DNA from: Pontibacter chinhatensis
GTDB taxonomy: Bacteria > Bacteroidota > Bacteroidia > Cytophagales > Hymenobacteraceae
Reading direction: 5' to 3'
Assembly: GCF_900113285.1 (NCBI RefSeq)
Contig: NZ_FOOT01000012.1
Span: 1 to 64,000, forward strand
DNA length: 64,000 nucleotides
Below, in pieces: positions 1 to 64,000 of this stretch. Position 1 is the stretch's first letter. Every line of letters begins with the position of its first letter. The notes under the pieces are model-generated. The model had not been told where the DNA came from and did no database searches. It saw only the letters and a program-made list of their open reading frames with translations. The position numbers and the translations under genes are program-made.

Positions 1-191
1 CTTCGCCTCATCCCCTGCCCCGCTCCTGCTGAACGGGAGGGCAAAAGTAGAAAACCTTTCCCGAAACGCAAACGCCCCGCCTAAAAAAAGATGGCACAAC
101 AGCGGAAATAGCTCAAGGTCAGGGGGAAAGTTTTCAAGGAGCCCGCCCCTTTCTCTCTTCCCTATTTCTCCCGGACGCTTAAGGGTAACAT
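1..191. other. Window edge, no gene recognised
   Basis: I see no convincing reading frame or RNA gene here. It is probably the region downstream of a gene that lies outside the window; the terminator that follows fits that reading. Confidence 0.4.
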
Positions 192-229
192 AAAGGGGGC
201 ATGATTAAGTTCATCATGCCCCCTTTTTT
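192..229. terminator. Bidirectional terminator hairpin
   Basis: A 13-bp stem (192-204 with 214-226) around a G5/C5 run is followed by six T on the plus strand. It can end transcription arriving from the left and also serves the minus-strand DUF2480 gene that stops at 248. Confidence 0.7.
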
Positions 230-247
230 CTGGAAATATTTTTTAAA

Positions 248-763
248 CTATGCGTTTCTCGGCTTTTTATAGAGCGGCACGGTGCTGCACGGCTCTCCAT
301 ACATAACGCTGGATGCCACCGGAACTAGCTTTCGCATGATCTCCACATAAGCATAAGCAGGTACCGGTGCGCTTCCACATCCTTTTACCACCACCTTCGC
401 ATCGCGGTATTCCTCCATATCAATTTTGGCTATCGCCTCCAGGAAGAGCGCCTGCTCCAGCGCCTCCAGGTTGCCGAACACATAGTAGTTGGCGTAATTC
501 TGCAGTTTTGTGGCCAGCAACATATACGCCCAGGTCGGCACGATGGCATCCACTGAGCAGATGATAGCCACGTTCTTACCTTCGTACTGCGACCAGTCAT
601 GATCTTTGACGAAGGCACGGAAATCCTTCTCGCGCAGGATCAGTCCCTGAAACAGGTTATCCTTAATATCATACACTACCCGCTCTCCCGGATGAATCAG
701 CTCTTCCAGGTTTAGGGTTACCAGCGCACTTTGCGCCACTCGGTTTATGATCTCTTCTGACAT
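248..763 (-). CDS. DUF2480 family protein
   Basis: A 171-residue soluble protein without signal peptide or membrane segment. Sequence and length match the Bacteroidota family DUF2480, whose biochemical role is not known to me. Visible marks are an N-terminal LNLEELIHPGERVVYD stretch, a central DAIVPTWAYMLLATKL segment and a C-terminal KGCGSAPVPAYAY stretch with a cysteine that may be functional. It starts with ATG 15 nt downstream of the tsaB stop codon and so is very likely co-transcribed with it. A terminator follows at 192-229. Family assignment is from memory of the family; function is open. Confidence 0.75.
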   Translation of the reverse strand: MSEEIINRVAQSALVTLNLEELIHPGERVVYDIKDNLFQGLILREKDFRAFVKDHDWSQYEGKNVAIICSVDAIVPTWAYMLLATKLQNYANYYVFGNLEALEQALFLEAIAKIDMEEYRDAKVVVKGCGSAPVPAYAYVEIMRKLVPVASSVMYGEPCSTVPLYKKPRNA

Positions 764-778
764 GGTTATACCTCCTAA

Positions 779-1474
779 TTATTTTGCGCCCTTGCCCGGG
801 CTTGTTATATAAACATCCTTCAGGTAGAAGGGTTCATAATACGCTACATCCTCAAAGGCCTGCTGTTTATACTTTGGCAGCGCCAACGCTCCTATGGTTT
901 TGGCATTCGGGAGCACGCCTTCTATAAACAAGGCATTGGCCTCAGTGTTTACTATACTTTTATACTTAGCAGCGCCGCTTCCGAAGAAGATGATTGGTTG
1001 CTTCTCCAGCCTTGCCCTAAAAGTCTGCTCATCCAGCACCACCGGTGCTATCGGCTCCACCTCCTGCAGCTCATGCGTGAGCAGGCAAGTATAAACCTCC
1101 ATCCGGCGCGCATCCAGCATGGGGCAGAACAAGTAACGCTCCGGGTTCGGCGTCATACCTATAACTTGTGCCGCCAAGCCATATAAGGTCGAAACCTCCA
1201 GCAGCGGTATGTTGAGCGAGAAGCACAAACCTTTGGCCGTGGATGTTCCGATACGCAGGCCTGTATAAGAACCAGGTCCGCCGGATACCGCTACTGCGCT
1301 TAGATCCTGCAAAGTATACCCGCAATTTTCGACCAGCTGCGCCACCATGACGGTGATGTGGGAAGAGTGCGACTTCTCTATCTGCAGCTCAGAGGCCCCC
1401 AGCAACTGCTGATCTTTATATAATGCGATGGAGCAGACAGTGGTAGAGGTTTCGAGCGCGAGCAACAGCGGCAT
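779..1474 (-). CDS. tsaB: tRNA threonylcarbamoyladenosine biosynthesis protein TsaB
   Basis: TsaB is the non-catalytic ASKHA-fold partner of TsaD in t6A37 modification of ANN-decoding tRNAs. The 231-residue product has the N-terminal LALETSTTVCSIAL phosphate-loop-like segment, the EKSHSSHI stretch and the family signature SGGPGSYTGLRIG near residue 70. I chose the ATG at 1474; a TTG two codons upstream is possible but less likely. It heads a two-gene unit with the DUF2480 gene and has its own promoter (1507-1538). Length is normal for the family. Confidence 0.93.
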   Translation of the reverse strand: MPLLLALETSTTVCSIALYKDQQLLGASELQIEKSHSSHITVMVAQLVENCGYTLQDLSAVAVSGGPGSYTGLRIGTSTAKGLCFSLNIPLLEVSTLYGLAAQVIGMTPNPERYLFCPMLDARRMEVYTCLLTHELQEVEPIAPVVLDEQTFRARLEKQPIIFFGSGAAKYKSIVNTEANALFIEGVLPNAKTIGALALPKYKQQAFEDVAYYEPFYLKDVYITSPGKGAK

Positions 1475-1506
1475 GGGCAAGTATAGTTATAGTATGAAAG
1501 ATACCA

Positions 1507-1538
1507 CAAAATTACGTTACACTGGTAAAGCTTCCAAA
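1507..1538 (-). promoter_or_regulatory. Bacteroidota-type promoter of tsaB
   Basis: On the minus strand, TTTG (1535-1538) is followed by 20 nt and TAATTTTG (1507-1514), matching the -33 TTTG / -7 TAnnTTTG consensus of the Bacteroidota primary sigma factor. The tsaB ATG lies 32 nt downstream of the -7 box. The -33 box overlaps a copy of the dispersed heptamer (TATACTTTTG). Confidence 0.72.
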
Positions 1539-1613
1539 AGTATAGCTTATGTATAGCAAAAGAGGGAAGCACTGCTGCGCCTCCCTCCCCTGCTTGTGTT
1601 TTTATACTTTTAT

Positions 1614-3263
1614 TTAATTAGCCTTCAGGTATGATTTATACTTTACAGGATCCTTCAGCACCTGCACAGCTGCCAGGATATCCGGGTCATCATCAAAAGA
1701 AGACTCGATATAACCTTTCTGCAGGTAATAGCGGGAGGCTATCTCCGACTCCAGCATCTCCTGAATCTCGGCGCGGAAACGCATCAGGTCGTTGGCCTTG
1801 TTGTGCGATACTTTCTTACGGATGGCCGCTAACTCAGCTTGTATATCATCATAGTGCTTCCCTTCCTTCGCTTTTGAAGCCAGATCCTCCAGCTCACTCT
1901 CGATAGCAGTTGTGTAGGAGAGGTCTTTATCATCCAGGTAGGCTACAAACTTTTTATACTCTGCATCAGTCAGCTTAAACTCTGTGGCTGCCGGAATGCT
2001 GGGGTGCTCCAGTTTATACTTGTTCGCATAGTCGAAGAAATAGCCTTTGGCAGCTATGGTCCGGATTATTTCGGAGAAGTTCGGTTGTTCTACCTCTACA
2101 TCAGGGCTAACACCACCACCATCGTATACCACACGGCCGGCTGCTGTTTTAAAAGCCGCGCGCAGCGAATCAGGTATCATCGCTACACTGCCGTCCTCGT
2201 TGCGGTGGGCATAGTCGATGGCCTGGATGCAGCGGCCACTTGGGATATAATATTTAGCTGTGGTTACTTTAAGTTGGGAGTTGTAAGACAGCGGGCGCGT
2301 CACCTGCACCAGGCCTTTGCCAAAAGTGCGCTCTCCTACCAGCACGGCGCGGTCATAGTCCTGCATCACGCCGGCCACAATCTCGGAAGCCGACGCGCTT
2401 CGTGAGCTGGTCAGCACCACCAGCGGCATCTCCAGGTCCAGCGGCTCATCCAGGGCTTTGTAGGTTTTGTTCCACTCCTCCACCTTACCCTTGGTACTTA
2501 CGATGTCTTTGCCCTTCTCCACAAAAATGTTTGAGATGTTCACAGCCTCATGCAGCAAACCGCCCGGGTTGTCGCGCAGGTCCAGCACAATTTTCTGGGC
2601 GCCTTTCTCCTTCAGCTTCTGCACCGCCATCTTTACCTCCTTGCCTGCATCCACAGTAAAGCCTGAAAGTTGCAGGTAGCCGATCTCGCCATCCAGCATG
2701 CCGTAGTAAGGCACGTTTTCTACCATGATATTCTCGCGCAGCAGGTCCAGGGTCTTGGACTTGTTCTGCCCATAGCTGCGGATCTCCAGCTTAACGGAGG
2801 TGTTGGCCTGCCCTTTCAGCAACTTGCTCACCTCTTCGGTAGACTTACCCCGCACATCCACGCCATTTACTTTCAGGATTTCGTCGCCGATAGCCAGGCC
2901 TGCTTTGTGCGCCGGAGAGTTCTCGTAGGGCATCTGCACCACCACTTTCCCGTCGCGGCTACCGATAACGGCACCAATACCGCCATACTGCCCAGTGGTC
3001 ATGGTGCGGAAATCCTCAATATCATCCTCCGGAATATAGTTAGTATAGGGGTCGAGCGACTTGAGCATGGCATCAATGCCCGTACGCATCATCTGCGCAG
3101 GCGGCACGTCATCCACATAGTACGTGTTTACCTCTTTGAAAAGGGTCGCAAAAACATCCAGGTTTTTGGCTATTTCAAAGTATCGCTCGGAATCTGTTTT
3201 AAAGGAAAAGAGGCCAAGGGCGAAAACGCCGATGAAAAGGCCGGTTATAGTTTTCTTATGCAT
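1614..3263 (-). CDS. S41 family C-terminal processing protease (CtpA/Prc-like)
   Basis: A 549-residue envelope serine protease. An N-terminal hydrophobic segment (ITGLFIGVFALGLFSF) acts as signal or anchor. A PDZ domain follows at about residues 85-170 (GGIGAVIG, NSPAHKAGLAIGDEILKVNG), then the S41 core. The catalytic Ser is in SASASEIVAG and the general-base Lys in GERTFGKGLVQ. The C-terminal 170 residues are a charged extension common in Bacteroidota members. These enzymes trim C-termini of periplasmic proteins; the substrate here is unknown. It starts 30 nt after rnpA and is probably in the rpmH-rnpA transcript. Confidence 0.92.
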   Translation of the reverse strand: MHKKTITGLFIGVFALGLFSFKTDSERYFEIAKNLDVFATLFKEVNTYYVDDVPPAQMMRTGIDAMLKSLDPYTNYIPEDDIEDFRTMTTGQYGGIGAVIGSRDGKVVVQMPYENSPAHKAGLAIGDEILKVNGVDVRGKSTEEVSKLLKGQANTSVKLEIRSYGQNKSKTLDLLRENIMVENVPYYGMLDGEIGYLQLSGFTVDAGKEVKMAVQKLKEKGAQKIVLDLRDNPGGLLHEAVNISNIFVEKGKDIVSTKGKVEEWNKTYKALDEPLDLEMPLVVLTSSRSASASEIVAGVMQDYDRAVLVGERTFGKGLVQVTRPLSYNSQLKVTTAKYYIPSGRCIQAIDYAHRNEDGSVAMIPDSLRAAFKTAAGRVVYDGGGVSPDVEVEQPNFSEIIRTIAAKGYFFDYANKYKLEHPSIPAATEFKLTDAEYKKFVAYLDDKDLSYTTAIESELEDLASKAKEGKHYDDIQAELAAIRKKVSHNKANDLMRFRAEIQEMLESEIASRYYLQKGYIESSFDDDPDILAAVQVLKDPVKYKSYLKAN

Positions 3264-3293
3264 AATGTCAGGCTATAGGAGACGCAGGTAAGT

Positions 3294-3701
3294 CTATTTA
3301 CTTACAAAACGCGCCAAACCTGAAATTAGTTTTTTCTGGATAGAGTGGAAAGATTTTTTTTCCTTCCCGATATAAAGGATGCCCAGCAGGCGGGGAGCCT
3401 GGTCGGGTTGTTGGATGATAATGTGCTTGTTTAAGCGATACGCCTCACGCATCTGCCGCTTCAGCAGGTTACGGTCTACGGCGCGCTTAAAGTAGCGTTT
3501 TGAAACGGAGAGGAGCACCTGGGTTTGCCCAGGCGGCAGGTCCTGCGGCGTGTAGTACACAAACCGCAGCGGATACAAATTAAAAGAAGAACCCTTGGCG
3601 AAAAGCAGCGAGATAAGCCGCTTCTGGCACAAGCGTTCTTCTTTTGAAAATGTATAGTTTAAAGGCTGGCCGGCTGGCTCATTGGTAGCAGCTGTATTCA
3701 T
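3294..3701 (-). CDS. rnpA: Ribonuclease P protein component
   Basis: RnpA binds the catalytic RNase P RNA and helps it cleave 5' leaders from pre-tRNAs. The 135-residue product is small and basic, with the family signature KRYFKRAVDRNLLKRQMREAYR (the RNR motif) in the middle and a C-terminal IGKEKKSF segment. The first ~18 residues (NTAATNEPAGQPLNY) extend beyond the fold and vary between species. It lies 41 nt downstream of rpmH, the usual pairing in bacteria. Confidence 0.95.
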   Translation of the reverse strand: MNTAATNEPAGQPLNYTFSKEERLCQKRLISLLFAKGSSFNLYPLRFVYYTPQDLPPGQTQVLLSVSKRYFKRAVDRNLLKRQMREAYRLNKHIIIQQPDQAPRLLGILYIGKEKKSFHSIQKKLISGLARFVSK

Positions 3702-3742
3702 TAGCGGCTATGCAATAGCGAAGCCTATTCCTGCATCAGGAA

Positions 3743-3904
3743 TTAAGCTGCCTTGTGTCTTTTGTCGCTAGAAACGGTCAGTCTCTTTCTGCCTTTGGCT
3801 CTTCTGCTGGCCAATACTCTTCTACCGTTAGCGGTTTCCATTCTAGATCTGAAACCGTGCTTGTTTCTTCTTTTTCTCTGAGAAGGCTGGAATGTTCTTT
3901 TCAT
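3743..3904 (-). CDS. rpmH: 50S ribosomal protein L34
   Basis: A 53-codon gene reading [18 protein letters not shown]..., ending ...SSDKRHKAA, which is unmistakably bL34. The protein is highly basic and sits in domain III of 23S rRNA. It is first in the rpmH-rnpA-S41 protease unit and has a textbook promoter immediately upstream (3933-3963). Confidence 0.97.
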
Positions 3905-3932
3905 CGTCTGCCAATGGTTTTATTATGGCCTG

Positions 3933-3963
3933 CAAAATTAGTAAACCTTTAATGAATCGCAAA
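3933..3963 (-). promoter_or_regulatory. Bacteroidota-type promoter of rpmH-rnpA
   Basis: On the minus strand, TTTG (3960-3963), a 19-nt spacer and TAATTTTG (3933-3940) form a very good match to the -33/-7 consensus. The rpmH ATG begins 28 nt downstream of the -7 box. Confidence 0.8.
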
Positions 3964-4096
3964 GTCTGGTTCATAAATTTTAAAAAAAGATGCTACAGCG
4001 CTGTGTTTTGGTGTTGAGAGAACTGGTATTCAGGTAGGCGTGGCCGGATCGGTTTTATACTTTGGCTATGCTTTATACTTAAGTTATACATTACTC

Positions 4097-4600
4097 TCTG
4101 GTGCAAGCGTCCGTTTGTGCCTCCTATAGCCTTGTCGCTGGCGCGAGTTTGTAGCTCGTACCTACTATGGTGTTGGGTTTGTAACCCAACTGGCTCGCAG
4201 AGCCATACTTATACTTTTGCTGTACTTTCTATACTTGCCGATTTATACTTTATACGTCTCTGGCGCAAGCGTCCGCTTGTGCCGCTTTTAGCTATCGCTT
4301 CCCGCAGCTTGACACAAGCTATTCTTACCAGCTTCCGTTCATCCTATAGTTCCCACAAACCTAAAGTTGCATCTCTGACTATGGAGCTCTCAAGCCCGAG
4401 AGGGCTCACCTTCGGGCATCGCGCGGCGTGCCTGAAGCTGCCTCCGCGCTGCTCCGGCTGCCTCACTTCGTTCGGCACCGCAACATCCACAAGGCGCTCA
4501 ACCCAAAGGCTGGGAACAGATTCGATAGCTGCTGCTAATGCAACTTGAACAGAACTCCCCTCCTTGGCTAAGGAGGGATGGTTGGACCCGGCACTGCAAA
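4097..4600 (+). repeat. Mosaic intergenic repeat, copy A
   Basis: The gap between divergent rpmH and the M61 peptidase gene holds no plausible gene. It contains four mini-hairpins (4100-4121, 4140-4162, 4168-4194, 4262-4283), a core of about 270 bp running from ACAAGCTATTCTTACCAGCT to GGGAACAGATTCGATAGC, and a CCCCTCCTTGGCTAAGGAGG palindrome (4556-4577). The same modules in the same order recur at 15.4, 37.1 and, reversed, 60.0 kb. Unlike those copies, this one lacks the 104-bp TGTCATCTCGA module. Confidence 0.8.
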
Positions 4601-4652
4601 AGCTATTCCACTCCTTTCCAATAATAACTTCCGACTTTTCAATCCACGTACA

Positions 4653-4660
4653 TAGCTTTG
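4653..4660 (+). promoter_or_regulatory. Candidate -7 box for the M61 peptidase gene
   Basis: TAGCTTTG matches TAnnTTTG and lies 27 nt before the ATG at 4688. No clear TTTG is visible at the -33 distance, so this is a moderate call. Confidence 0.45.
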
Positions 4661-4687
4661 CAAAACGAACGTATAACCTGACGCATC

Positions 4688-6403
4688 ATGATACATTATC
4701 GCCTCTCCTTTCAGAACCCGCTAACGCACTTTGTGGATATCACTATCACGATAATAGGTAACCAGCAGCAGGAGCTATACTTGCAACTGCCCGCCTGGCG
4801 CCCTGGGCGGTATGAGTTGCAGCAGTTTGCCCAAAAGTTGCGGGCCGTGACAGCCTCTGCCGACGGAGAAGGTATCACCATCGAGAAAGTGACCAAGGAC
4901 CGTTGGCTGGTGCAGGCCGGAGATGCCTCGGAGGTACAAATCCGCTACAGCTTTTTTGCGCGCCAGATGGATGCCGGTGGCTCGTGGCTGGATGAGGAGC
5001 AGCTTTACCTCAACCCGATTAACTGCCTGATGGCGGTAGAAGGGCGCGAACAAGAGGAATGCCAGCTAGAACTGCAGCTGCCGGAAGAGTGGCAGATTGC
5101 CTGCGGGCTGCCCGAAGTGGAGAAGCATACGTTGCAGGCGGCAACCTTTGACGAGCTGGTGGACAGTCCTTTTATTGCGAGCGACAGCCTGAAGCGGGAA
5201 ACGTTTGAGGTAAGCGGTTATACTTTCCACGTCTGGATACAGGGCGACTGCCAGCCGGACTGGGCGAAAATAAAGCAGGACTTTATCGGGTTTACAAAAG
5301 AGCAGTTAGAAGTGTTCGGCGATTTTCCGGTAAAAGAGTACCATTACCTGAACCAGATTCTGCCTTACCGCTATTACCACGGCGTGGAGCACAGCCACTC
5401 TACCGTCATCACGCTGGGGCCAGGCGAGCTGCTTATGTCGCCGGCCTTGTACAAAGAGTTTGTGGGCGTGAGTTCGCACGAGCTCTTCCATACCTGGAAC
5501 ATCAAGAAAATACGCCCTGCCGAGATGCTGCCGTACAACTTCGCGCAGGAGAATTACTTCAAGACAGGTTATGTAGCCGAAGGCATCACTACCTACTACG
5601 GCGATTACATGCTGGCGCGCAGCGGCTTCTTTACTGCTGAGGCATACTTTGAAGAACTCAACACCACCCTGCAGCGCTACTTCGCCGACTACAGCCGCCA
5701 TAACCTCTCCGTTGCAGACTCCTCCTTCGATTTGTGGCTGGACGGCTACAAGCCGGGCATCCCCGACCGCAAGGTATCCATCTACATCAAAGGCGCCCTC
5801 ACCGCCCTGCTCCTGGACCTGCAGCTACGCCAAGCTACCGGTAACAGCGCAAGTATGGATGTGGTGATGAGGGAGCTATGGGAGCGTTTCGGCAAAAAGA
5901 ACATCGGCTACTTGGAGCAGGACTACGCTAACCTAGTAGAGGAAGTGGCAGCACAGTCGTTTCAGCCATACTTTGACAGGTACATCCACGGCACTGAACC
6001 TATTGAACATGCCCTGGACGAAGCCCTGCGCTATGTAGGCTGCACCCTGGCCGAACACCAGAACCCGCTTATTTATGAGAGCAAGTATGGCTTTAAGGTT
6101 TCTTCTGAGGGAAGTATAAAAGTAACTGCCATTGCCCCAGGCTCACCGGCCAGTGAGCTTTTAAGTATAGACGATGAACTGGTGGCCCTGAACGGACGCA
6201 AACTGGAGAACAACCTGCAACAGCTGCTGGCGCTGGAGCCACAGGAAATGGAGCTAACCTTGTTCCGGGAGAAGCAGCTGCGCGTGGTAAGGCTGGAACC
6301 CAACGGCCAAAGCTACTACAGCAAGTATACGGTGCAGAAACGGCAGGACGCGACGGCGGAAGAAATGGAGAACTTCAGATTGTGGCTGAAGCAGGCGTTT
6401 TAA
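4688..6403 (+). CDS. M61 family metallopeptidase with PDZ domain
   Basis: A 571-residue zinc peptidase of the glycyl-aminopeptidase family M61. An N-terminal beta-rich domain (about 1-165) is followed by the catalytic domain with the zinc motif HELFHTWNIKKIRP and, some 35 residues later, the third-ligand region GYVAEGITTYYGDY. A C-terminal PDZ domain is visible in IAPGSPASELLSIDDELVALNG. There is no obvious signal peptide, so it is probably cytoplasmic or peripheral. It likely trims small N-terminal residues from peptides. It stands alone between repeat-filled gaps. Confidence 0.9.
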   Translation: MIHYRLSFQNPLTHFVDITITIIGNQQQELYLQLPAWRPGRYELQQFAQKLRAVTASADGEGITIEKVTKDRWLVQAGDASEVQIRYSFFARQMDAGGSWLDEEQLYLNPINCLMAVEGREQEECQLELQLPEEWQIACGLPEVEKHTLQAATFDELVDSPFIASDSLKRETFEVSGYTFHVWIQGDCQPDWAKIKQDFIGFTKEQLEVFGDFPVKEYHYLNQILPYRYYHGVEHSHSTVITLGPGELLMSPALYKEFVGVSSHELFHTWNIKKIRPAEMLPYNFAQENYFKTGYVAEGITTYYGDYMLARSGFFTAEAYFEELNTTLQRYFADYSRHNLSVADSSFDLWLDGYKPGIPDRKVSIYIKGALTALLLDLQLRQATGNSASMDVVMRELWERFGKKNIGYLEQDYANLVEEVAAQSFQPYFDRYIHGTEPIEHALDEALRYVGCTLAEHQNPLIYESKYGFKVSSEGSIKVTAIAPGSPASELLSIDDELVALNGRKLENNLQQLLALEPQEMELTLFREKQLRVVRLEPNGQSYYSKYTVQKRQDATAEEMENFRLWLKQAF

Positions 6404-8450: not shown

Positions 8451-8476
8451 AAAAGGGAAGCCGAAGCTTCCCTTTT
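8451..8476 (-). terminator. Terminator of the PfkB kinase gene
   Basis: An 11-bp perfect stem with a CGAA loop (8451-8461 with 8466-8476) is followed on the minus strand by a T-rich tract. Two heptamer copies abut its plus-strand 3' side. Confidence 0.75.
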
Positions 8477-8497
8477 ATACTTTATACTTGGTTATAC

Positions 8498-9421
8498 TTA
8501 CTGCAGCACCGTGTCAAACGCCACCAGGTTCACGAACTGCTGCACACGGGCGTCAATCTCTTCCTGCGAAAGGTTTTTGAGGCGCTCTGTACCGAATTTT
8601 TCCACGCAGAACGAGGCCATGGCCGAGCCATAAATTACGGCGCGCTTCATGCTCTCGAAGCTGATGTCTTTTGTGCTGGCCAGGTAACCGATGAAGCCAC
8701 CCGCAAACGTGTCGCCAGCTCCGGTTGGGTCAAACACTTCTTCCAGCGGAAGGGCTGGCGCAAAAAACACTTTCTCCTCGTGGAACAACAGGGCGCCGTG
8801 TTCGCCTTTTTTGATGATGAGGAACTTAGGCCCCATCGCCATGATTTTTTTGGCCGCTTTCACCAATGAGTAGTCGCCGCTGAGTTGGCGCGCCTCCTCG
8901 TCGTTAATCGACAGCACATCTACCAGTTTCAGGGTTTCCTTCAGGTCGTCCAGGGCAATGTCCATCCAGAAGTTCATGGTGTCCATCACAATGAGTTTAG
9001 GACGGCTGCTGAGGCGCTCGATTACGGTTTTCTGCACCTGCGGCGCCAGGTTGCCCAGCATCAGGTACTCGCAGCCCTGGTAGCTGTCGGGGATAATCGG
9101 GTCGAAATCGCCCAGCACGTTGAGCTCGGTGGCCAGCGTTTCGCGGCTGTTCATGTCGTTGAAGTAGCGGCCCGACCAGAAGAAGGATTTCTCGTTCTCC
9201 TTTACCTGCACGCCTTCGGTGCTGATGTTACGCTCGTGCATCAGGGCGATGTGGTCCTGGTCAAAGTCACCTCCCACTACCGACACCACGTTTACCGGCT
9301 TTACAAAGTATGACGACGACAGAGAAATATAAGTGGCCGCACCACCCACGATCTTATCTGTTTTTCCGAAGGGAGTCTCCAGCGCATCAAACGCCATCGA
9401 ACCTACTACTACTAAGCTCAT
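8498..9421 (-). CDS. PfkB/ribokinase family sugar or nucleoside kinase
   Basis: A 307-residue kinase of the ribokinase fold. The PfkB signature DPTGAGDTFAGGFIGYLA near residue 240 carries the anion hole and the catalytic Asp. The N-terminal GSMAFDALETPFG and GGAATYISLSSSYF segments are the substrate-side part of the fold. Close Bacteroidota proteins are usually annotated only as PfkB-type or sugar kinase, so the phosphoryl acceptor (ribose, adenosine or other) is open. It is monocistronic with its own terminator and a candidate -7 box. Confidence 0.88.
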   Translation of the reverse strand: MSLVVVGSMAFDALETPFGKTDKIVGGAATYISLSSSYFVKPVNVVSVVGGDFDQDHIALMHERNISTEGVQVKENEKSFFWSGRYFNDMNSRETLATELNVLGDFDPIIPDSYQGCEYLMLGNLAPQVQKTVIERLSSRPKLIVMDTMNFWMDIALDDLKETLKLVDVLSINDEEARQLSGDYSLVKAAKKIMAMGPKFLIIKKGEHGALLFHEEKVFFAPALPLEEVFDPTGAGDTFAGGFIGYLASTKDISFESMKRAVIYGSAMASFCVEKFGTERLKNLSQEEIDARVQQFVNLVAFDTVLQ

Positions 9422-13985: not shown

Positions 13986-14014
13986 CATTAAAACACCAAG
14001 TATAAAGTATAACC

Positions 14015-15424: not shown

Positions 15425-16355
15425 CCCGCTTATGGCGCAAGTCTTCAGACTTGTGTCTTACTATGGTGTTGGGTTTGTAACCCAACTGGCTTGAAAAGCC
15501 ATATATATACTTCGGCTGTGCTTTTATACTTTGGCTATACTTTTATTCTTGCTGATTTATACTTTATACTTCCTCTGGCGCAAGCGTCCGATTGTGCCTT
15601 TTTCTACTTTGGCTATACTTCCATAGCCTCGGCTTACTTCCATTTGAAACAAGCTATCCTTATTAGCTGCCGTTCATCCTCTAGTTTCCACATACCTATC
15701 GTTTCATTTCCTACTTTCTGCCCTCCCAGGCCGGGAGGCCTCGTTTTCCTGCTCGGCGCTGTGTTCCCTCCTTGCCTCGCTGCCGCTCAGCATGCCCTTG
15801 ACGGGCACCGGATCTCACAAGGCGCCTCACAGAAAAACTGGGAATCTTTCGATAGCCTCCGCTATTACAACTGTCCCCTTGAGGGGAGCATAGGGGTGTA
15901 ATCGTCTGCTGGGACATGAGGTGGTTCAAATCTGATTGCTCCAGTCATTGCTGTCATCTCGAACTTGGGGAGAGATCTGGTTAGAATTCCCGATAGATCT
16001 CTCACAGCTACGCTGGCTCTCTTCGGCTCTCGCCTCAAGAGTACTCGAGATGACAGAGAAAGTGGCAAGTATAAACTGTCCCCTTGAGGACAAGTGAGAC
16101 GAGAATCGAAACTTGCGACCAAAGGTACATAGGGGGATGTAATCGCCCGCAGTGAATTCCCCTCCTCGGAGGGGCTAGGGGTGGGTTTATACTTGTAGGT
16201 AAAAGTCGCGACCTGTCCACGCGAGAACCAAGGCTATGAAACTTATACTTCAGCAGTGGCAATAACAGACTCCCCGCCTTAGACTACCGAGAACGCGAGT
16301 TCGAAGGTAGCGAGCGCAGCTCTGAGGGGGAAGGGGTGGTTGGACCCGGCACTAT
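15425..16355 (+). repeat. Mosaic intergenic repeat, copy B
   Basis: This fills the 996-bp gap between the convergent helicase and membrane-protein genes. In order it holds framed hairpins (15434-15457, 15464-15490, 15577-15598), the core (about 15640-15865), a CTGTCCCCTTGAGG module and the 104-bp TGTCATCTCGA element (15952-16055). A second CTGTCCCCTTGAGG module follows, then a CCCCTCCTCGGAGGGG palindrome, a GTCGCGACCTGTCC stretch, and a final GGGGTGGTTGGACCCGG end shared with copies A and C. Open frames across it are not conserved in register and are not genes. Confidence 0.85.
15952..16055 (-). mobile_element. MITE-like element with TGTCATCTCGA inverted ends, copy 1
   Basis: The 104-bp unit is bounded by TGTCATCTCGA and TCGAGATGACA, a perfect 11-bp terminal inverted repeat, and encodes nothing. 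Its interior (CAGCTACGCTGGCTCTC) is inverted relative to the copies at 37419 and 60194. Similar TGTCATC-ended small elements are common in Bacteroidota genomes; no mobilising enzyme is seen here. Confidence 0.7.
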
Positions 16356-19869: not shown

Positions 19870-21708
19870 ATGAAGACCTACCTTCGCATACTACAGTTTG
19901 CCAAACCCTACAGCCGGTTTGTGCCGCTCTACACCCTTTATACTTTCCTGGGCATCATTTTCGGCCTGTTCAACTTCACCCTGCTCATTCCGTTACTGGA
20001 CGTGCTTTTCGGTAAAGTTGGCAACGACGAGGTAATGGCCATGGTCGCCACCAAGCCGGTGTTCGCGCTCAACCTGGAGTTCTTCAAGGACTTTTTTTAC
20101 TACCATTTCGGTCATGTTATCCTGGAGCAGGGGCGCCAGGGGGCTTTGATGTTCGTCTGTATCATCATCATCGTATCAGTGTTTCTGGCTAACCTGTTCC
20201 GCTACCTGGCCTTCCGGATTGTGGGAGCGCTGCGGGCGCACGTGGTGCGCAACATGCGCCGGACTGTGTACGAGCGCGTAACCGAGCTGCACCTGGGCTA
20301 CTTTAGCAACGAGCGCAAGGGCGACTTGATGACGCGCCTGACCGTGGACATACAGGAAGTGGAAAGCTCCGTAGTGAGCACGCTGACGGTGGTCATTCGC
20401 GAGCCGGTTTCCATCATTGCCTTTTTTATACTTCTCTTTAACATGTCGGTAGAGCTAACGCTGTTCTCGCTTATACTTCTGCCGCTATCCGGCGGTATCA
20501 TTGCGGGCATCTCCAAGCGACTGAAGCGCAAGGCCAAGGAAGGACAGAACTCGCTCAGTTTTATACTTACCATCATCGATGAGACCCTGAGCGGCATGCG
20601 CGTGATCAAGGCCTTCAATGCCGAGCCGTTTATACTTGGCAAGTTCCACGATCAGAACAACCGTTACGCCCGCATCCAGTGCTCCATTGCCAACAAGCGC
20701 GATCTAGCCTCCCCGCTATCGGAGTTCCTAGGCGTGTCGGTGGTGGCGGGGCTGCTGCTCTACGGCGGCACAATGGTACTTAATAATGAGTCAGAGCTTG
20801 GGGCCAGTGAGTTTATCACCTACATCATCCTGTTCTCGCAGGTGCTGGTGCCGGCTAAGGCCATGTCAGCGGCCTTCAGCAACATCCAGCGCGGCCTGGT
20901 GTCCGGCGACCGGGTGCTGCAGGTGGTGGATACGGAGCCGCAGATCAAAAACAAGGCTAACGCCAAGGTGCTGCCCGCCTTCAGACATGAGATAGAGTTC
21001 AGGGATGTAGCCTTCGCCTACGGCGACAAGCCGGTGCTGCAGGACATCAACTTCAGTATACAGAAAGGCAAGACCGTGGCCCTGGTAGGCCCATCGGGTG
21101 GCGGCAAATCTACGCTGGCCGACCTGGTGCCGCGCTTCTACGACCCCACCAGCGGCGCCATCCTCATCGACGGCCACGACATCCGCGACTATACCATGGA
21201 GTCGGTGCGGGCGCAGATGGGGGTAGTGACGCAGGAGTCTATCCTTTTCAACGATACGATTTTCAACAATATCGCCTTTAACAAGACGGATGCCACGGAA
21301 GAGGAAGTAATCGCCGCCGCTAAAATCGCCAACGCGCATGAGTTTATCATCAATGCCGAGAACGGCTACCAGACTATGATTGGCGACAGGGGCAGCAAAT
21401 TATCAGGCGGACAGCGCCAGCGTTTAAGCATCGCCCGGGCCATCCTACAAAATCCGCCGATACTCATACTGGACGAGGCTACCTCGGCGCTGGACACGGA
21501 ATCGGAGAAGCTGGTGCAGGAGGCTTTGACTAACCTGATGAAGAACCGTACCTCCATCGTAATTGCGCATAGGTTAAGTACCATTCAGCATGCCGATGAA
21601 ATACTGGTGCTGCAGCAGGGCAGAATTGTAGAAAGAGGCAACCACGAAGAACTGCTGGAGCACTCCGGTTTGTACGCCAAACTAACGCAAATGCAGCTAA
21701 CGGTTTAA
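19870..21708 (+). CDS. MsbA-like ABC exporter (permease-ATPase half transporter)
   Basis: A 612-residue half transporter. Six hydrophobic segments fill the first ~320 residues (such as FVPLYTLYTFLGIIFGLFNFTLLIPLL). The ATPase domain follows: Walker A GPSGGGKST, Q-loop VVTQESILF, signature LSGGQRQR, Walker B ILILDEATSALD and H-loop IVIAHRLS. Its form fits MsbA/lipid-exporter types, which flip lipid A-core or related amphiphiles as homodimers in the inner membrane. I set the start at 19870 because the 29 upstream codons are not hydrophobic or conserved. The gene carries at least five heptamer copies in two frames. The lipid substrate is inferred. Confidence 0.9.
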   Translation: MKTYLRILQFAKPYSRFVPLYTLYTFLGIIFGLFNFTLLIPLLDVLFGKVGNDEVMAMVATKPVFALNLEFFKDFFYYHFGHVILEQGRQGALMFVCIIIIVSVFLANLFRYLAFRIVGALRAHVVRNMRRTVYERVTELHLGYFSNERKGDLMTRLTVDIQEVESSVVSTLTVVIREPVSIIAFFILLFNMSVELTLFSLILLPLSGGIIAGISKRLKRKAKEGQNSLSFILTIIDETLSGMRVIKAFNAEPFILGKFHDQNNRYARIQCSIANKRDLASPLSEFLGVSVVAGLLLYGGTMVLNNESELGASEFITYIILFSQVLVPAKAMSAAFSNIQRGLVSGDRVLQVVDTEPQIKNKANAKVLPAFRHEIEFRDVAFAYGDKPVLQDINFSIQKGKTVALVGPSGGGKSTLADLVPRFYDPTSGAILIDGHDIRDYTMESVRAQMGVVTQESILFNDTIFNNIAFNKTDATEEEVIAAAKIANAHEFIINAENGYQTMIGDRGSKLSGGQRQRLSIARAILQNPPILILDEATSALDTESEKLVQEALTNLMKNRTSIVIAHRLSTIQHADEILVLQQGRIVERGNHEELLEHSGLYAKLTQMQLTV

Positions 21709-22187: not shown

Positions 22188-22763
22188 ATGACAGCTACTA
22201 CCATACTTGCAGAACTGACGCAGGCACAGGACGTGCTTAATGCGTTTCTGTCTGATGCGGCTAACATCGCATCCATTGAACAGGCCGCCGAAACGATGGC
22301 CGCCTCTATCCAAAACGGAGGTAAAATAATCAGCTGCGGCAACGGCGGCTCCATGTGCGATGCCATGCACTTTGCCGAAGAGCTCTCCGGCCGCTACCGC
22401 AACGACCGCCGCGCCCTACCGGCCCTCTCCATCTCCGACCCCAGCCACATGAGCTGCGTGGGCAACGACTACGGCTACGAGTACGTGTTCTCCCGTTACC
22501 TGGAGGCGCTGGGCAACCAGGGCGACGTGCTGCTGGCCATCAGCACCAGCGGCAACTCGGGCAACGTGCTGCGCGCTGCTGAAACCGCCAAAGCCAAAGG
22601 CATGAAAGTGGTTGGCCTGACCGGCAAGGACGGTGGCAAGCTGGCCCCGCTCTGCGACGTGGAGATACGCGTGCCGCACTTTGGCTACGCCGACCGCGTG
22701 CAGGAAATCCATATCAAGGTCATCCACATCTTTATACTTTTGCTGGAGCAGAAGCTGGTGTAA
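22188..22763 (+). CDS. gmhA: Phosphoheptose isomerase
   Basis: GmhA converts sedoheptulose-7-phosphate to D-glycero-D-manno-heptose-7-phosphate, the first step of ADP-heptose synthesis for LPS core or S-layer glycans. The 191-residue SIS-domain product has [23 protein letters not shown] near residue 46, the phosphate-binding [14 protein letters not shown], and the C-terminal [16 protein letters not shown]. Length is normal. It follows the two-TM gene and ends before a strong hairpin. Heptose genes were not seen elsewhere in the window. Confidence 0.92.
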
Positions 22764-22783
22764 CTCACCTCCAAGTATAAACC

Positions 22784-22835
22784 AAAGTATAAATCCGGGT
22801 GGCAGCGCAGTTTCTACCACCCGGATTTATACTTT
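22784..22835 (+). terminator. 19-bp perfect hairpin with heptamers in both arms
   Basis: Arms 22784-22802 and 22817-22835 pair perfectly around a 14-nt loop. Each outer arm end is a heptamer copy (AAAGTATAAA / TTTATACTTT) and the inner part is the GC-rich TCCGGGTGG / CCACCCGGA. It lies just after gmhA and is probably its terminator, though only four T follow. Confidence 0.7.
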
Positions 22836-22903
22836 TAACCTGCCCTGGGCATTCTAAACACAGAAAACTCGTACGTAGTAAGTATAAATTTATACTCTGC
22901 CGG

Positions 22904-23542
22904 ATGAAACACACGCTATACCTTATACTTGCGCTGGCCGCCTTTCTCGCCTCCTGCCAAAGCCAGGAAAACAGCAGGCAAACCGAGCCGGACACCATAC
23001 CCGCAGATACCACGGCTGCACAACCACCCAAGCCTCCCGCCCCGGACTCGACTTACCTCATCGTTCCAGGCGAAAGTATAGGCAAGGTGAAGGTGGGGAT
23101 GTATGGCGAGGCACTGGCGCGTATACTTGGCGAGCCCGACAGCAGCGACGCCGCGATGGGCAAGGCACTCTACTTCTGGGAAGGCGAACAGCCGGCGCAT
23201 TATGTGTCGGTGTTTACGGTAACCGATTTCGGAGGCCAGGTAGAGAAGCCGGTGGTGCAGCAGGTACAGATCACCTCGCCGCGGTTCCTGACAAAAGACA
23301 GCATTGGCACGGGCAAGCCCCTCTCCGAGATCCGGCAGAAGTATGGCCCGCTCCGGCCACTGGCTTATTTCCAGAACGCGCAGCAGCAACAGGTGTATAT
23401 TTTCGACAACCAGGCCCAGGGCATCGCCTTTGAGGTAACGCTGCCCGACAGCCTGTGCTCTGCCATCACGGTGCATCCCAAAGGCGAGGATATGGCCGAC
23501 ATCTACCTGCCCCTGCACCCGGACATGACCCGAATTAAGTAA
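22904..23542 (+). CDS. Lipoprotein, 212 aa, unknown
   Basis: The start at 22904 gives MKHTLYLILALAAFLASCQS, a lipoprotein signal with lipobox LASC. A Pro/Thr-rich linker (TEPDTIPADTTAAQPPKPPAPD) precedes a domain with repeated SIGKVKVGMYGEALARILGEPDS-like turns. That pattern resembles SmpA/OmlA-type or DUF-type small beta domains in which IGKVKxGM precedes a helix. No specific function can be given. It likely sits on the periplasmic face of a membrane. Confidence 0.72.
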   Translation: MKHTLYLILALAAFLASCQSQENSRQTEPDTIPADTTAAQPPKPPAPDSTYLIVPGESIGKVKVGMYGEALARILGEPDSSDAAMGKALYFWEGEQPAHYVSVFTVTDFGGQVEKPVVQQVQITSPRFLTKDSIGTGKPLSEIRQKYGPLRPLAYFQNAQQQQVYIFDNQAQGIAFEVTLPDSLCSAITVHPKGEDMADIYLPLHPDMTRIK

Positions 23543-23556
23543 TTTTGCCACAGGCC

Positions 23557-23572
23557 ATACTTTTAAAAGTAT
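23557..23572. repeat. 16-nt perfect palindrome formed by inverted heptamers
   Basis: ATACTTTTAAAAGTAT brings two inverted heptamer cores together in the gap between the lipoprotein gene and yifB. It could be a weak terminator or a protein-binding site; nothing else is seen around it. Confidence 0.5.
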
Positions 23573-23652
23573 AACTCGGAATCAATTAGGTGCCAGCGTT
23601 GTTCCGCATCAAAAAAAATCCCGAGAACCTATACTTCCAACTGAAAGCAAAC

Positions 23653-36955: not shown

Positions 36956-37036
36956 GTTTTATACTTTGTATTGATGATTTTATACTTGGCTTGTTCCGAA
37001 GCTTTACGGCAAGATAGGAAAAAATGGTGTACCTGA

Positions 37037-37124
37037 TATTTATACTTTGCCGGAGTATTTAAGTAGTTCTATACTTGCTGGTTTATACTTCGCTATACTT
37101 TATACTTTGCCTATACGTCTATGC
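37037..37124. repeat. Heptamer-dense segment upstream of tpiA
   Basis: Between 37041 and 37110, TATACTT occurs at least five times, sometimes in near-tandem (TTCGCTATACTTTATACTTTGC). It begins the 939-bp gap between tpiA and uvrA. No gene is seen. Confidence 0.7.
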
Positions 37125-37760
37125 TTATCTGGCGAAAGCGTCCGCTTGTGTCGTTACTCTTTAGCTATACTTTCCTAGCCTCGGCTTCCCACAGCTGGAA
37201 ACAAGCTATCCTTTCTAGTTACCGCTCATCCTCCAGACTTACATACCTATCGTTGCATCTATATTTGGCTCCCTCAAGGCCGGGAGGCCTCGCCTTCGGG
37301 CATCGCGCTGTGTTCCCTCCTTGTCTCGCTAGCGCTCAGCATGCCCTTGACGGGCACCGGATCTCACAAGGCGCTCAACTCAAAGGCTGGGAACAGATTC
37401 GATAGCCACGGCCCTTGCTGTCATCTCGACCCTCTTGAGGCGGGAGCCGAAGAGAGCCAGCGTAGCTGTGAGAGATCTGAAGAGAATTCCGGATAGCTCT
37501 CTCGCCCTGCTCGAGATGACAGGTGGAGCGGCAAGTATAAACTGTCCCCTTGAGGACAAGTGAGAGTACGAGTTCGAAGCTTGCGAGCAAAGCTCAAGTG
37601 GGGTGTAATCGTCTGTTAGGTTTATACTGTGTAGGGACAGGTCGCGACCTGTCCGCGCGAGAACTGCAACTACAAAGCTTATACTTCAGCACCAGTAATC
37701 ACAGACTCCCCTCCTTGGCTAAGGAGGGGTAAGGGGTGGTTGGACCCGGTATTGCACATA
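37125..37760 (+). repeat. Mosaic intergenic repeat, copy C
   Basis: It has a framed hairpin (37131-37152), the core (about 37190-37405, with CCGGGAGGCCTCGCCTTCGG and GACGGGCACCGGATCTCACA) and the 103-bp TGTCATCTCGA element (37419-37521). A CTGTCCCCTTGAGGACAAG module follows, then GACAGGTCGCGACCTGTC and CCCCTCCTTGGCTAAGGAGG, ending GGGTGGTTGGACCCGG. The order is that of copy B. Frames in it are not genes. Confidence 0.85.
37419..37521 (+). mobile_element. MITE-like element with TGTCATCTCGA inverted ends, copy 2
   Basis: 103 bp bounded by a perfect 11-bp inverted repeat (TGTCATCTCGA / TCGAGATGACA). The interior GAGCCGAAGAGAGCCAGCGT runs in the plus direction, opposite to copy 1. Noncoding. Confidence 0.7.
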
Positions 37761-37838: not shown

Positions 37839-37874
37839 ATAAAGCCGCTGCATGTATACTTGCAGCGGCTTTAT
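37839..37874. terminator. Terminator of uvrA
   Basis: A 14-bp stem ATAAAGCCGCTGCA/TGCAGCGGCTTTAT with loop TGTATACT. The stem and loop are almost identical to the gldD terminator at 59973-60006, read in the opposite direction. Confidence 0.8.
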
Positions 37875-37894
37875 ACTTATACTTTATACTTCGC

Positions 37895-40702
37895 CTACAG
37901 CTTATCCTTCAGGAACCGAGCCGTATGGTTGTCCTCCAGCTTCGCCATTTCCTCTGGGGTACCTTCGAACAACAGGTGGCCGCCATTTAAACCTCCTTCC
38001 GGACCAAGGTCGATGATCCAGTCGGCGGACTTGATGATATCCATGTTGTGCTCGATGATAACGACGGTGTTGCCATTCTCAATCAGAGCATTGATGGAGG
38101 TAAGAAGCCTGCTGATGTCGTGGAAGTGCAGGCCAGTGCTTGGCTCGTCGAAGATAAACAGGATGTTCTCGTGGTGCGGCTGTATGCCCTTGGTCAGGAA
38201 GGAGGCCAGCTTTACGCGCTGCGCCTCGCCACCCGACAGCGTGTTGCTCGATTGACCTAGTCGGATATAACCCAGCCCCACATCGTTCAGCGGCCGCAGC
38301 TTTTCGATAATCTTCGGCTGATCGGCAAAAAAGCCAATACTATCGGCGATGGTCATATCCAGCACCTCGGAGATACTCTTGTCCTTATACTTGATATCGA
38401 GCACGTCCTGCTTAAAACGCTGGCCATGGCAGCTGTCGCAGGTCAGGTAGATGTCGGCCATAAACTGCATCTCGATCTTCACCTGTCCCTCGCCCTGGCA
38501 TACTTCGCAGCGGCCGCCCTCGATGTTAAACGAGAAGTGCGACGGCTTGAACCCACGCGCTTTTGCTAGCGGCTGATCGGCGTACAGGGTACGGATAGCG
38601 TCGTAAGCCTTCACGTAGGTTACAGGGTTGGAGCGCGACGACTTGCCGATCGGGTTCTGGTCCACAAACTCCACGTGCTCAATCTTACCGTAGTCGCCGG
38701 CCAGCTTGTCGAATTTGCCGGTAGCCTCTGCGGTAGCGCCGTGCAGCTTCTGCATGGCCGGAGCCAGGATTTTCTTGATCAGTGTCGATTTACCGGAGCC
38801 GCTTACGCCTGTCACCACCGTCATCACATCCAGCGGAATCTTCACGTTCAGGTTTTTGAGGTTGTTCTCGCGCGCCCCAATAATCTGAATGGCATTGCGC
38901 CACTTGCGCCGCTGCGTGGGAACGGGCACCTCCATGCGGCCACTCAGGTACCTGGAAGTATAGGTATCTGCCTTTCTAGTCAGCTCGTCCAGCGTTCCCT
39001 GAAACATCAGGTTACCACCACCAGAGCCGGCCTCCGGGCCAATATCAATTAACTGGTCAGCCGCGCGCATCATCTCCTCCTCGTGCTCCACCACAATTAC
39101 CGTGTTGCCCAGTTGCTGCAGCGAGCGCAGCACGCCAATCAGTTGCTCGGAGTCTTTAGGATGCAGGCCAATGCTTGGCTCGTCCAGGATGTACATGGAG
39201 CCCACCAGGGCGCTGCCCAGCGAGGTAGCCAGGTTGATGCGCTGGCTCTCGCCGCCGGAAAGGGTGTTGGAAAGCCGGTTGAGCGTCAGATACCCGAGGC
39301 CCACGCGCTCCAGATAGCCCAGGCGGTTGGTGACCTCCGTTACCAGGCGCTCAGCCACGTTCTGCTCGTGCTCTGTCAGCTGCAGGTTCTGGAAGAATGG
39401 CAGCACCTGCGTAATCGGCATCAGCACCAGGTCAGTTATACTTTTGCCGCCCACTTTCACGTAGCTGGCATCCTTGCGCAGGCGCGAGCCTTTGCAGTCG
39501 GGGCAGGTAGTGCGGCCGCGGTAGCGCGACAGCATCACGCGGTACTGTACCTTGTGCGTTTGCGACTGAATCTCCTTAAAGAAAGCGTTGAGGCCGGAGA
39601 AGTACTTATTGCCGGTCCACAGCAGTTCCTGCTCCGCCTCCGTCAGCTCGTTATAGGGCCGGTGAATCGGAAAATCGAAGCGAATGCCGTTTTTGAGCAG
39701 CGGCTGCAGCCACTCGCTCATCTTATCGGTGCGCCACGGGGCAATGGCCCCCTCGTACACCGTCAGGCTTTTATCGGGAATTACTAGGTCCGGGTCAATG
39801 CCGAGCACGCTACCGAAGCCCTCACAGGTCTGGCAGGCGCCGTAGGGGTTGTTGAAGCTGAAGAAGTTGACCGACGGCTCCTCGAACGTCATTCCGTCCA
39901 GCTCAAACCTGTTGGAGAAAACACGCTCCTCGCCGTCGCCATACTTTACGCGGCACTCGCCGTGGCCCTCAAAGAAGGCTGTCTGCACCGAGTCGGCAAT
40001 CCGGAACTGCAGGTCCTCGTCGGATTTGTAGATCACGGCACGGTCCACGAGAATGTATACTTCCTTGCCCAGGTTTGGCTTCTTCTCCTCCAGCAGCTCC
40101 TCTATAAAGTATACCTGCCCGTTGGCGTAGATGCGCGAGTAGCCTTTCTGCAGCAGCAGGTCCAGCTCCTTGCCCAGGCTGCGCTCCTTGTGCTGGTGCA
40201 GCGGCGCCAGAATCATCACGCGGGCCTCATCCTCTAAAGAGAAGATAAAGTCCACCACGTCGGTAACGGTGTCTTTCTGCACCACCTCCCCGGAGATGGG
40301 CGAATAGGTTTTGCCGATGCGGGCGTAGAGCAGCTTCAGGTAATCGTAAATCTCGGTGCTGGTGCCTACCGTGGAGCGGTTGTTTTTTATACTTACCTTC
40401 TGCTCGATGGCGATGGCCGGGCTGATGCCACGGATATAGTCCACGTCCGGCTTGTCCATACGGCCCAGGAACTGGCGCGCGTAAGAACTCAGGCTCTCCA
40501 CGTACATGCGCTGCCCCTCTGCATAGAGCGTGTCAAACGCCAGCGACGACTTGCCGGAGCCGGAAAGGCCGGTAATGACGATGAACTTGTTGCGGGGCAG
40601 CGCCACACTCAGGTTTTTGAGGTTGTGCACCCGCGCGCCTTTAATAATGATGTGCTGACGGGCATCGAGCTCGTCCAGTTTATCTTTGGTTATGTTTACC
40701 AT
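37895..40702 (-). CDS. uvrA: Excinuclease ABC subunit A
   Basis: UvrA finds bulky DNA lesions and loads UvrB in nucleotide excision repair. The 935-residue product has two ABC ATPase modules: Walker [21 protein letters not shown] near residue 45 and [11 protein letters not shown] in the second half, each with an LSGGExQR signature. Zinc-binding pairs are [24 protein letters not shown] and CDSCHGQRF. The C-terminal [22 protein letters not shown] is typical. It is monocistronic. Confidence 0.98.
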
Positions 40703-62845: not shown

Positions 62846-63056
62846 GTTTGAAAGTTAAAAAGTTAGAAGGTTAGAAAGTTAGGCCCTTTTATACTTTGGT
62901 TCCACGCGAAACAATAGGTAAAAGGTAATATTGCAGCTGTTTATACTTTGTGTGAGCGAAGAGCAGTGTATTAGGAAGCACAGTTACGCTTATCCGGCTG
63001 CCATAGACTGTAGGCATGTAATAATTACTAACAAACGTGGTTGTAACTAACTAATT
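62846..63056. other. Gap after recG
   Basis: It has a short tandem GTTAGAAGGTTAGAAAGTTAG (62866-62883 region) and two heptamers. The sequence turns AT-rich at about 63,000. No gene is seen. Confidence 0.45.
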
Positions 63057-63488
63057 GTGTTCTATGATAGAACTTTAAAGAACTACGAACTGCACGCAAT
63101 AAAAGTGACTTGGTATAATCTGATATTCTTCCACGTATTTAAGCGCTACTATAAAAACGGTAGGCATAAAAATGACATCCCTTGGTTGACTGCTTCTGGA
63201 ATAGTGGGGGTGTCGAGTCTACTGTATCTGTTTATTATTACTGCCTTGACTTACTTTCTTGTCAATGGAGAAATGCCAGAATTTGATGGAAAGTATTCTC
63301 TTCTTTTCTGCACTTCTTTTGTAGCACTTAATTGGATGTGGTTTACCGGTGGGAATAGATACTTGGAGATATATAACGGTTTTAAAGACAAGTATACAGA
63401 GGATAAGTTAACTGAGGCCTTATCATGGTCTTATGTCTTTGGTGCTTATATTGTATTTATTGTCGTGATTATTACTTTGAAGATGTAA
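63057..63488 (+). CDS. Three-TM membrane protein, 143 aa, accessory
   Basis: The frame opens with GTG at 63057 and ends TAA at 63486-63488. Three hydrophobic segments are seen (SGIVGVSSLLYLFIITALTYF, LLFCTSFVALNWMWF, SYVFGAYIVFIVVIIT). A basic N-terminal loop (HVFKRYYKNGRHKND) suggests an inside start. It is strongly AT-rich with TTA/ATA codons, unlike recG. I do not recognise a family. It precedes the attC-like site. Confidence 0.65.
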   Translation: MFYDRTLKNYELHAIKVTWYNLIFFHVFKRYYKNGRHKNDIPWLTASGIVGVSSLLYLFIITALTYFLVNGEMPEFDGKYSLLFCTSFVALNWMWFTGGNRYLEIYNGFKDKYTEDKLTEALSWSYVFGAYIVFIVVIITLKM

Positions 63489-63546
63489 ATAGGCGGTGGG
63501 GCAGGATTCAGGAAATAGGGGAATAGAAAAATTAAAAACACCGAAA

Positions 63547-63612
63547 CGCCAACAAAGCACATGTATAAGGCTGCGGCTACGCCTTGCTCACCTCATGTAC
63601 AAGCAGTTGCCA
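63547..63612 (+). other. attC-like recombination site
   Basis: AAC (63551-63553) and GTT (63606-63608) flank two nested stems, ACATG (63559-63563) with CATGT (63594-63598) and AAGGC (63567-63571) with GCCTT (63581-63585). Their 5- and 7-nt outer spacings resemble integron attC sites. The flanking 7-mers do not match the full RYYYAAC/GTTRRRY consensus. An ORF starts 22 nt after the GTT, as in cassettes. No integrase is seen in the window. Confidence 0.45.
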
Positions 63613-63629
63613 GTAACTCGTGATTAAGA

Positions 63630-64000
63630 ATGAGAAAGAGATACAATACATTAATCTTTATTGGAATTCTGCTGCTTACAAGTTATGTGCTTTACCCTGA
63701 TTCTTTTCCTCCGCGAACTCCTATAAAAGTAGTAAGACTTGTGAGCGGTCTTAAAATCTCAGAAGGTATAAAGTTTGAGATGCTGCAAGACGACTGGGCG
63801 CTTAACGGAGATGGTACAACACATGTCAAAGCAAAACTTACAGACAAGCAGCTAAGTGACATTTTGAAGCAAGCATCCGAACAAAAATATCATGCTTTGC
63901 CTATTCTGGAGAAATCTTATGAACTCTTCATACCAGAAGCAATCGCTGATGCGGAGAATGGGTATTACCAACTTAAAATAGATGATGATGACCCGAGAGA
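63630..64000 (+). CDS. Partial ORF with N-terminal signal/anchor, cut by window edge
   Basis: The ATG at 63630 opens a frame to the edge (at least 123 codons). The N-terminal segment MRKRYNTLIFIGILLLTSYV is a signal or anchor. The visible part is AT-rich and charged (DDWALNGDGTTHVKAKLTDK). No family is recognised, and the C-terminus is outside the window. It sits just after the attC-like site. Confidence 0.65.
   Translation, partial: MRKRYNTLIFIGILLLTSYVLYPDSFPPRTPIKVVRLVSGLKISEGIKFEMLQDDWALNGDGTTHVKAKLTDKQLSDILKQASEQKYHALPILEKSYELFIPEAIADAENGYYQLKIDDDDPR

Follow-up and report, generated by a model that had tools for sequence, protein, structure and literature searches.

The stretch of DNA analysed here (the window, 64,000 nucleotides at the start of a contig of Pontibacter chinhatensis) carries yifB/comM, a competence-linked gene encoding a Mg-chelatase-like AAA ATPase (PF01078; 23590–25191, plus strand), and is scattered throughout with a short word, AAGTATA or, on the opposite strand, TATACTT. 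The 64 kb hold 176 copies, 61 forward and 115 reverse. We assign a probability of about 0.7 to the reading that this word is a DNA uptake sequence, that is, a tag of self-DNA, with dialects within Pontibacter.

Placement of the word in the window and its source genome

The logo of the flanks of AAGTATA yields an extended form, AAGTATAAA, with 82 copies in the window, and no wider repeat unit. Markov models of order 1, 2 and 3 predict 5.2, 10.6 and 31.5 copies of AAGTATA, and those of order 4 and 5 predict 90.2 and 157.0, expectations that are high because the training includes sub-words of AAGTATA itself. Of the one-mismatch neighbours, AAGTATG occurs 62 times and each of the other 20 at 2–16 copies. 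The source genome (G000; Pontibacter, 5.07 Mb in 25 contigs) contains 4,309 copies of AAGTATAAA, 2,097 on one strand and 2,212 on the other, against 32 of the reversed word, so that the overrepresentation suspected by the first-pass annotation extends to the whole genome, with thousands of copies on both strands. As the genome overall is balanced and copies cluster co-oriented, the 61:115 imbalance of the window looks local. Neighbouring copies lie a median of 214 bp and a mean of 383 bp apart in ten G000 sequences (the window and nine further loci).

Hand counts made in that annotation were confirmed. The first 5,000 bases contain exactly the 16 copies reported (868–4782), five of which form a co-oriented cluster between genes at 4056–4250; the 11 reported near 22.7 kb correspond to a dense stretch of ten upstream of yifB and just within it (22733–23636), or 11 if the copy at 24057 is included; and the ABC transporter gene at 19870–21708 (plus strand), credited with five or more, carries five (19939, 20427, 20472, 20562 and 20631).

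According to a simple codon-usage gene caller written for the present analysis, genes hold 91 copies in the window, at a density of 1.9 per kb, and spacers 85, at 5.6 per kb. In 400 kb of the relative G129 the corresponding values are 329 copies at 1.1 per kb and 410 at 4.0 per kb, spacer density being in both cases about 3–4 times the genic density. Every reading frame is represented among the coding copies of the window, whether sense (24/8/20) or antisense (7/9/23). The word had been described as a non-palindromic motif running through coding and noncoding DNA on both strands and kept at the level of DNA and not of peptide; these placement counts bear out the former, and frame use agrees with the orthologue conservation and dialects described below in bearing out the latter.

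Copies tend to form co-oriented clusters at 6–15 bp spacing, with some inverted pairs, and the richer places are permissive ones. Intergenic arrays of six and eight co-oriented copies lie on the minus strand at 15506–15620 and 36960–37172, respectively. At and just past the stop codon of the minus-strand gene 8498–9397 sit three reverse copies (8476–8499), of which two directly adjoin each other; four more (37855–37891), partly in tandem at 6–7 bp spacing, lie just past that of the minus-strand gene 37895–40702. Two head-to-tail forward copies (13998–14011, plus strand) directly precede a DEAD-box helicase gene that begins at 14015. One strict hairpin with the word was found in the window; it is terminator-like, with two copies as an inverted pair at its base and 18 of 19 arm bases matching (22785–22834). 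The intergenic stretches 4056–4260, 15506–15640 and 36960–37170 are alike in their co-oriented arrays and a common GCAAGCGTCCG-like piece, and are perhaps a dispersed spacer repeat. Two convergent, overlapping words form the palindrome AAGTATACTT, frequent in the G129 stretches L188–L207; at this 3-bp offset, such pairs number 19 in 400 kb of G129 and 3 in 164 kb of G000.

Chi and FtsK-orienting sites show strong polarity along each replichore. In the 20 G129 stretches, the orientation of the word relative to GC skew is 206:169 at positive and 174:190 at negative skew (p=0.056), at most a weak and non-significant lean, and a polarity of that kind was therefore discarded.

Dialects and conservation of sites in Pontibacter

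A search of named genomes with yifB ranked uncultured Pontibacter first, followed by Rufibacter. The comparison comprised 50 genomes of the genus, G000 included, within a first count of 150 genomes, the other 100 belonging to five further genera of the family. Samples of the yifB region from 49 relatives (mostly 20 kb, three of 9.7–13 kb) revealed that genomes lacking AAGTATA often carry a related word. Among the 50 genomes, the dialect is AAGTATAAA in 22 (1,270–4,337 copies per genome), AACTATAGC in five (2,017–2,985), AGGTATAGC in 12 (1,365–2,768) and ATATATAAA in one, G002 (1,739 copies; control 122), while G117 has a weak GGTATA word (194 in 100 kb, 21 expected) and nine genomes have no clear word, with weak remains in two of these, G131 and G075. 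Mixed genomes occur as well: G018, of the AACTATAGC dialect, also has 1,062 copies of AAGTATAAA, and G058 and G033, counted among the 22, have 752 and 891 copies of AACTATAGC. All dialects keep TATA, and each word is about as frequent on one strand as on the other. In a FastTree tree of 12 proteins of the yifB region (coverage 46–100%), the AGGTATA genomes group together in a single clade, as do those with AACTATA in another, which includes the mixed G058 and G033; with clades read from topology alone across the 50 genomes, the dialects thus appear congruent with the phylogeny and follow the genus tree.

The first-pass annotation had pointed to Pontibacter, Hymenobacter and relatives as the genomes in which to count the word. 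It is indeed abundant in many Pontibacter genomes, but among the 150 genomes high AAGTATAAA counts are confined to this genus: the other five genera reach at most 260 copies, with a control count of 137 in that top genome, and genus g3 shows a modest excess, such as 209 versus 80 in G003. At the Rufibacter and Hymenobacter loci no heptamer exceeded the threshold for being reported. In a 21.6-kb locus (L020) of a metagenome-assembled genome, Bacteroidetes bacterium RIFCSPLOWO2_12_FULL_35_15, the heptamer CTGTTAC occurs 21 times, against one copy of its reverse, and is possibly another iterated word.

We then compared G000 sites with their orthologous positions, leaving out the near-identical G109 and taking the expectation from AT-rich control heptamers. 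For 15 same-dialect genomes whose competence genes are intact, 231 of 473 comparisons gave an exact site (19% expected), an excess of motif over control and beyond the flanks. Six wordless genomes gave 18 of 120 (13% expected), AACTATA genomes 10 of 68 (15%), AGGTATA genomes 8 of 59 (13%), G002 0 of 31 and G117 0 of 21. Conservation beyond expectation is therefore found mainly between genomes of the same dialect. AAGTATG and the overlapping AAAGTAT show a moderate excess, while four arbitrary control heptamers were conserved at 1 of 53 sites (11.5 expected).

Part of the change between dialects took place in situ. When AGGTATA sites were aligned with the AAGTATA-dialect relatives G043, G105 and G077, AAGTATA was the commonest counterpart in nine of nine pairings (once tied), which represent three queries by three subjects and are not independent; between 8 and 25% of sites were aligned in place with AAGTATA.

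These observations bear on the notion that the word is a functionless product of mutation bias, codon usage or a mobile repeat. The co-oriented intergenic arrays and repeated spacers are what a mobile repeat might leave. Nevertheless, the reversed word stays at background, all six coding frames are used, the flank logo extends into no wider repeat, orthologous sites exceed control heptamers, four arbitrary heptamers are hardly conserved, and the word differs between related genomes, all of which makes this explanation very improbable.

Competence genes and possible erosion of the word

In Riemerella anatipestifer, a member of the same phylum (Bacteroidota), comEC, dprA and the gene for an HHH protein are essential for transformation, and yifB mutants transform less (PMC8459023). 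Matches for comEC, dprA and HHH are present in all 50 Pontibacter genomes, including the nine without a word; judging from its domains, the Pontibacter HHH protein is probably the product of the same gene as in Riemerella.

The yifB gene is split in G052, G067, G073 and G087 by insertions of 10–17 kb (one of 6 kb), which lie either directly ahead of the Walker A motif (residue 242) or around residue 373. By eye, there is one integrase type per insertion point (L155, L156, L157, L159–L160), and both points are occupied in G087. Phage-type integrases were confirmed with Pfam in the G052 and G073 insertions and look alike by eye in G087; no integrase was called in the G067 insertion. In line with this, comM is a target of mobile elements in Acinetobacter, and its loss lowers transformation (PMC11472951). 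The G073 insertion also contains a Type ISP restriction-modification enzyme (PF18135, N6_Mtase; L157:9805–13008), a defence gene within a competence gene. All four split genomes are of the AAGTATAAA dialect (4 of 22 versus 0 of 28, p=0.03). A fifth AAGTATAAA genome, G089, has an in-frame stop at residue 263 of yifB; 45 of the 50 genes compared in its four regions are whole, the broken ones being comEC, dprA, HHH, yifB and one uncharacterized 255-aa gene with one stop. In G046, of the AGGTATA dialect (L158, L263, L264), comEC, dprA and yifB look frameshifted or stopped and the neighbours compared are whole. In the remaining yifB genes, stops are confined to the part before residue 25, ahead of the probable start or close to it.

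Word density in the AAGTATAAA dialect is lowest in exactly those five of the 22 genomes in which a competence gene is broken, 231–414 versus 476–968 per Mb in the others, a ranking that is 1 of 26,334 possible orderings when the tree is ignored and genome sizes are rounded. Excess site conservation in the yifB region, which flanks the insertions, lies between -0.07 and 0.14 in these five and between 0.27 and 0.49 in the 15 genomes with intact genes. The comEC and dprA regions pooled give a weaker contrast, from five broken and three intact genomes: 51 of 172 sites exact (22% expected) versus 49 of 108 (25% expected; p=0.01). The word is also rarer in acquired DNA, the five island stretches within yifB having 0.53 copies per kb (0.10–0.96) and the DNA flanking them 1.36.

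Decayed copies were looked for as single-mismatch relics, which are more frequent in G089 (23 of 88) than in G049 (11 of 83, p=0.04). Per exact copy, the single-mismatch excess is 1.42 in G089, 1.44 in G073 and 0.41 in G067, compared with 0.30–0.98 in eight intact genomes, a set that leaves out G052 and G087. Over whole genomes, the relic ratio is 2.13 in G089, 1.23–1.71 in the other four broken genomes and 0.92–1.58 in 15 intact unmixed ones, and is highest in the mixed G058 and G033 (2.31 and 2.90), where the second word differs little from the first and probably raises the count. Relics fit G089, partly G073, and not G067, and were set aside as a general sign of broken competence.

The word as a candidate uptake sequence

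Overrepresentation, dialects, shared-dialect conservation, island depletion and the low density in genomes with broken competence genes, directly observed together with some rewriting and the weak conservation in those five genomes, are jointly explained by a self-DNA tag recognised in natural transformation, which would be taken up preferentially by way of a receptor, with biased recombination as the presumed driver. According to the model that we propose, a putative sequence-specific DNA-binding protein of the competence machinery would prefer DNA with AAGTATA(AA); fragments bearing the word would be taken up and recombined more often, so that biased transformation would maintain and spread it; a change in the specificity of the recogniser would slowly rewrite the genome into a new dialect around the shared TATA core; and breakage of competence genes would let copies erode.

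Several observations weigh against this interpretation. Rewriting in place towards AACTATA is weak, AACTATA/AAGTATA being found at 1–4 of 26–54 sites per pairing. Outside yifB, sites of G052 are not weakened (5 of 12 exact), G067 is without relic excess, and four of the five broken genomes fall in or just above the intact range of whole-genome relic ratios. All nine wordless genomes have full-length, stop-free matches for comEC, dprA, HHH and yifB, and competence genes alone therefore do not imply a word. Despite its three broken competence genes, G046 keeps 2.43 copies per kb and has no relic excess; recent loss or sequencing error would be excuses, not evidence. In addition, for part of the link to competence, the genomes that suggested it also served to test it, and they were counted as independent. 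DUF5689, considered as a receptor following a Riemerella screen, is present in 22 of the 50 genomes without tracking the word, and was rejected; its form of about 430 aa occurs at 12 loci, and most of the six that were read are, by eye, SusC/SusD-like clusters. Finally, the literature searched, which covered part of the matches, contained no data on uptake or transformation in Pontibacter, nor any description of the word or of uptake sequences in this genus.

The word could instead act after uptake, as a Chi-like or integration signal at which a recombination protein linked to transformation or repair favours exchange, spreading by gene conversion and not as an entry tag. Drive, dialects and dependence on yifB and dprA would also follow in that case, ComM has a role in recombination and not in entry (PMC11472951), and the weak lean with GC skew in G129 is in its favour. 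However, strong replichore polarity is lacking, uptake sequences have dialects that behave in much the same way (PMC3630211) and no recogniser is known, and we regard this alternative as unlikely.

In cyanobacteria, HIP1 is a palindromic octamer iterated through genes and spacers. The first-pass annotation had likened the Pontibacter word both to HIP1 and to the uptake sequences of Neisseria and Pasteurellaceae. The former comparison extends to iteration in genes and spacers, but the logo shows a word that is not a palindromic octamer, which makes HIP1 a poor fit, and the word changes by dialect and appears to track competence-gene integrity; dialects, the apparent link to competence genes and island depletion make uptake sequences the better analogy. 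A HIP1-like word could persist through a role at the level of the chromosome, such as methylation, nucleoid organisation or the context of mismatch repair, its dialects following a changing DNA-binding protein or methylase. Its genome-wide presence on both strands, in genes and spacers, would agree with this, and any DNA-binding protein would suit the dialect shifts; yet nothing in such a role would lead one to expect the lowest density and conservation in genomes with broken competence genes and, with the word being non-palindromic, we consider it improbable.

As a self-DNA tag, the word has its closest counterpart in the DNA uptake sequences (DUS) of Neisseriaceae, likewise short, non-palindromic words in thousands of copies, with dialects that follow the tree around an invariant core, CTG in DUS and TATA here; DUS also form inverted pairs at terminators and are absent from recently acquired genes (PMC3630211, PMC2397512). 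The uptake signal sequences of Pasteurellaceae are 9-bp words with lineage subtypes (PMC3630211), and differ from the Pontibacter word in sequence and phylum. Pontibacter, of another phylum than Neisseriaceae, differs from these too in that the uptake role is deduced from sequence and in its machinery: no credible type IV pilus ATPase (PF00437) was found in the 50 genomes, weak matches of about 40–65 positions barely passing the cut-off in three of them. For this reason, a ComP-type minor pilin is not expected, and Pontibacter should rely on machinery unlike that of Neisseria and Haemophilus. Nor did a receptor emerge, the one candidate family, DUF5689, having been rejected. Riemerella has a pathway with comEC, dprA, the HHH protein and yifB (PMC8459023), and Riemerella columbina prefers its own DNA, so self-preference exists within the phylum; the k-mer table for Riemerella contains A/T-rich words only, whose function its authors left open, and the available part of that report describes no dialects (PMC7965970). 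We lean slightly towards a pilus-independent form of self-DNA recognition, in which an envelope protein would read the TATA-centred word, several switches of specificity would have rewritten genomes, and islands in comM would let the word decay.

In the literature covered, uptake sequences with dialects are on record for Neisseriaceae and Pasteurellaceae only. If true, the present interpretation would mean that they also arose separately in a different phylum and, it seems, without pilus ATPases, implying that the principle evolves repeatedly with different receptors. Since dialect switches, mixed genomes, losses and natural knockouts of competence genes all occur in a single genus, the origin and persistence of uptake words by uptake bias, drive or selection become directly testable.

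Downstream of yifB, the window carries three tandem genes for outer-membrane beta-barrel proteins (PF13568; 25433–27764), and similar genes occupy this place in several relatives.

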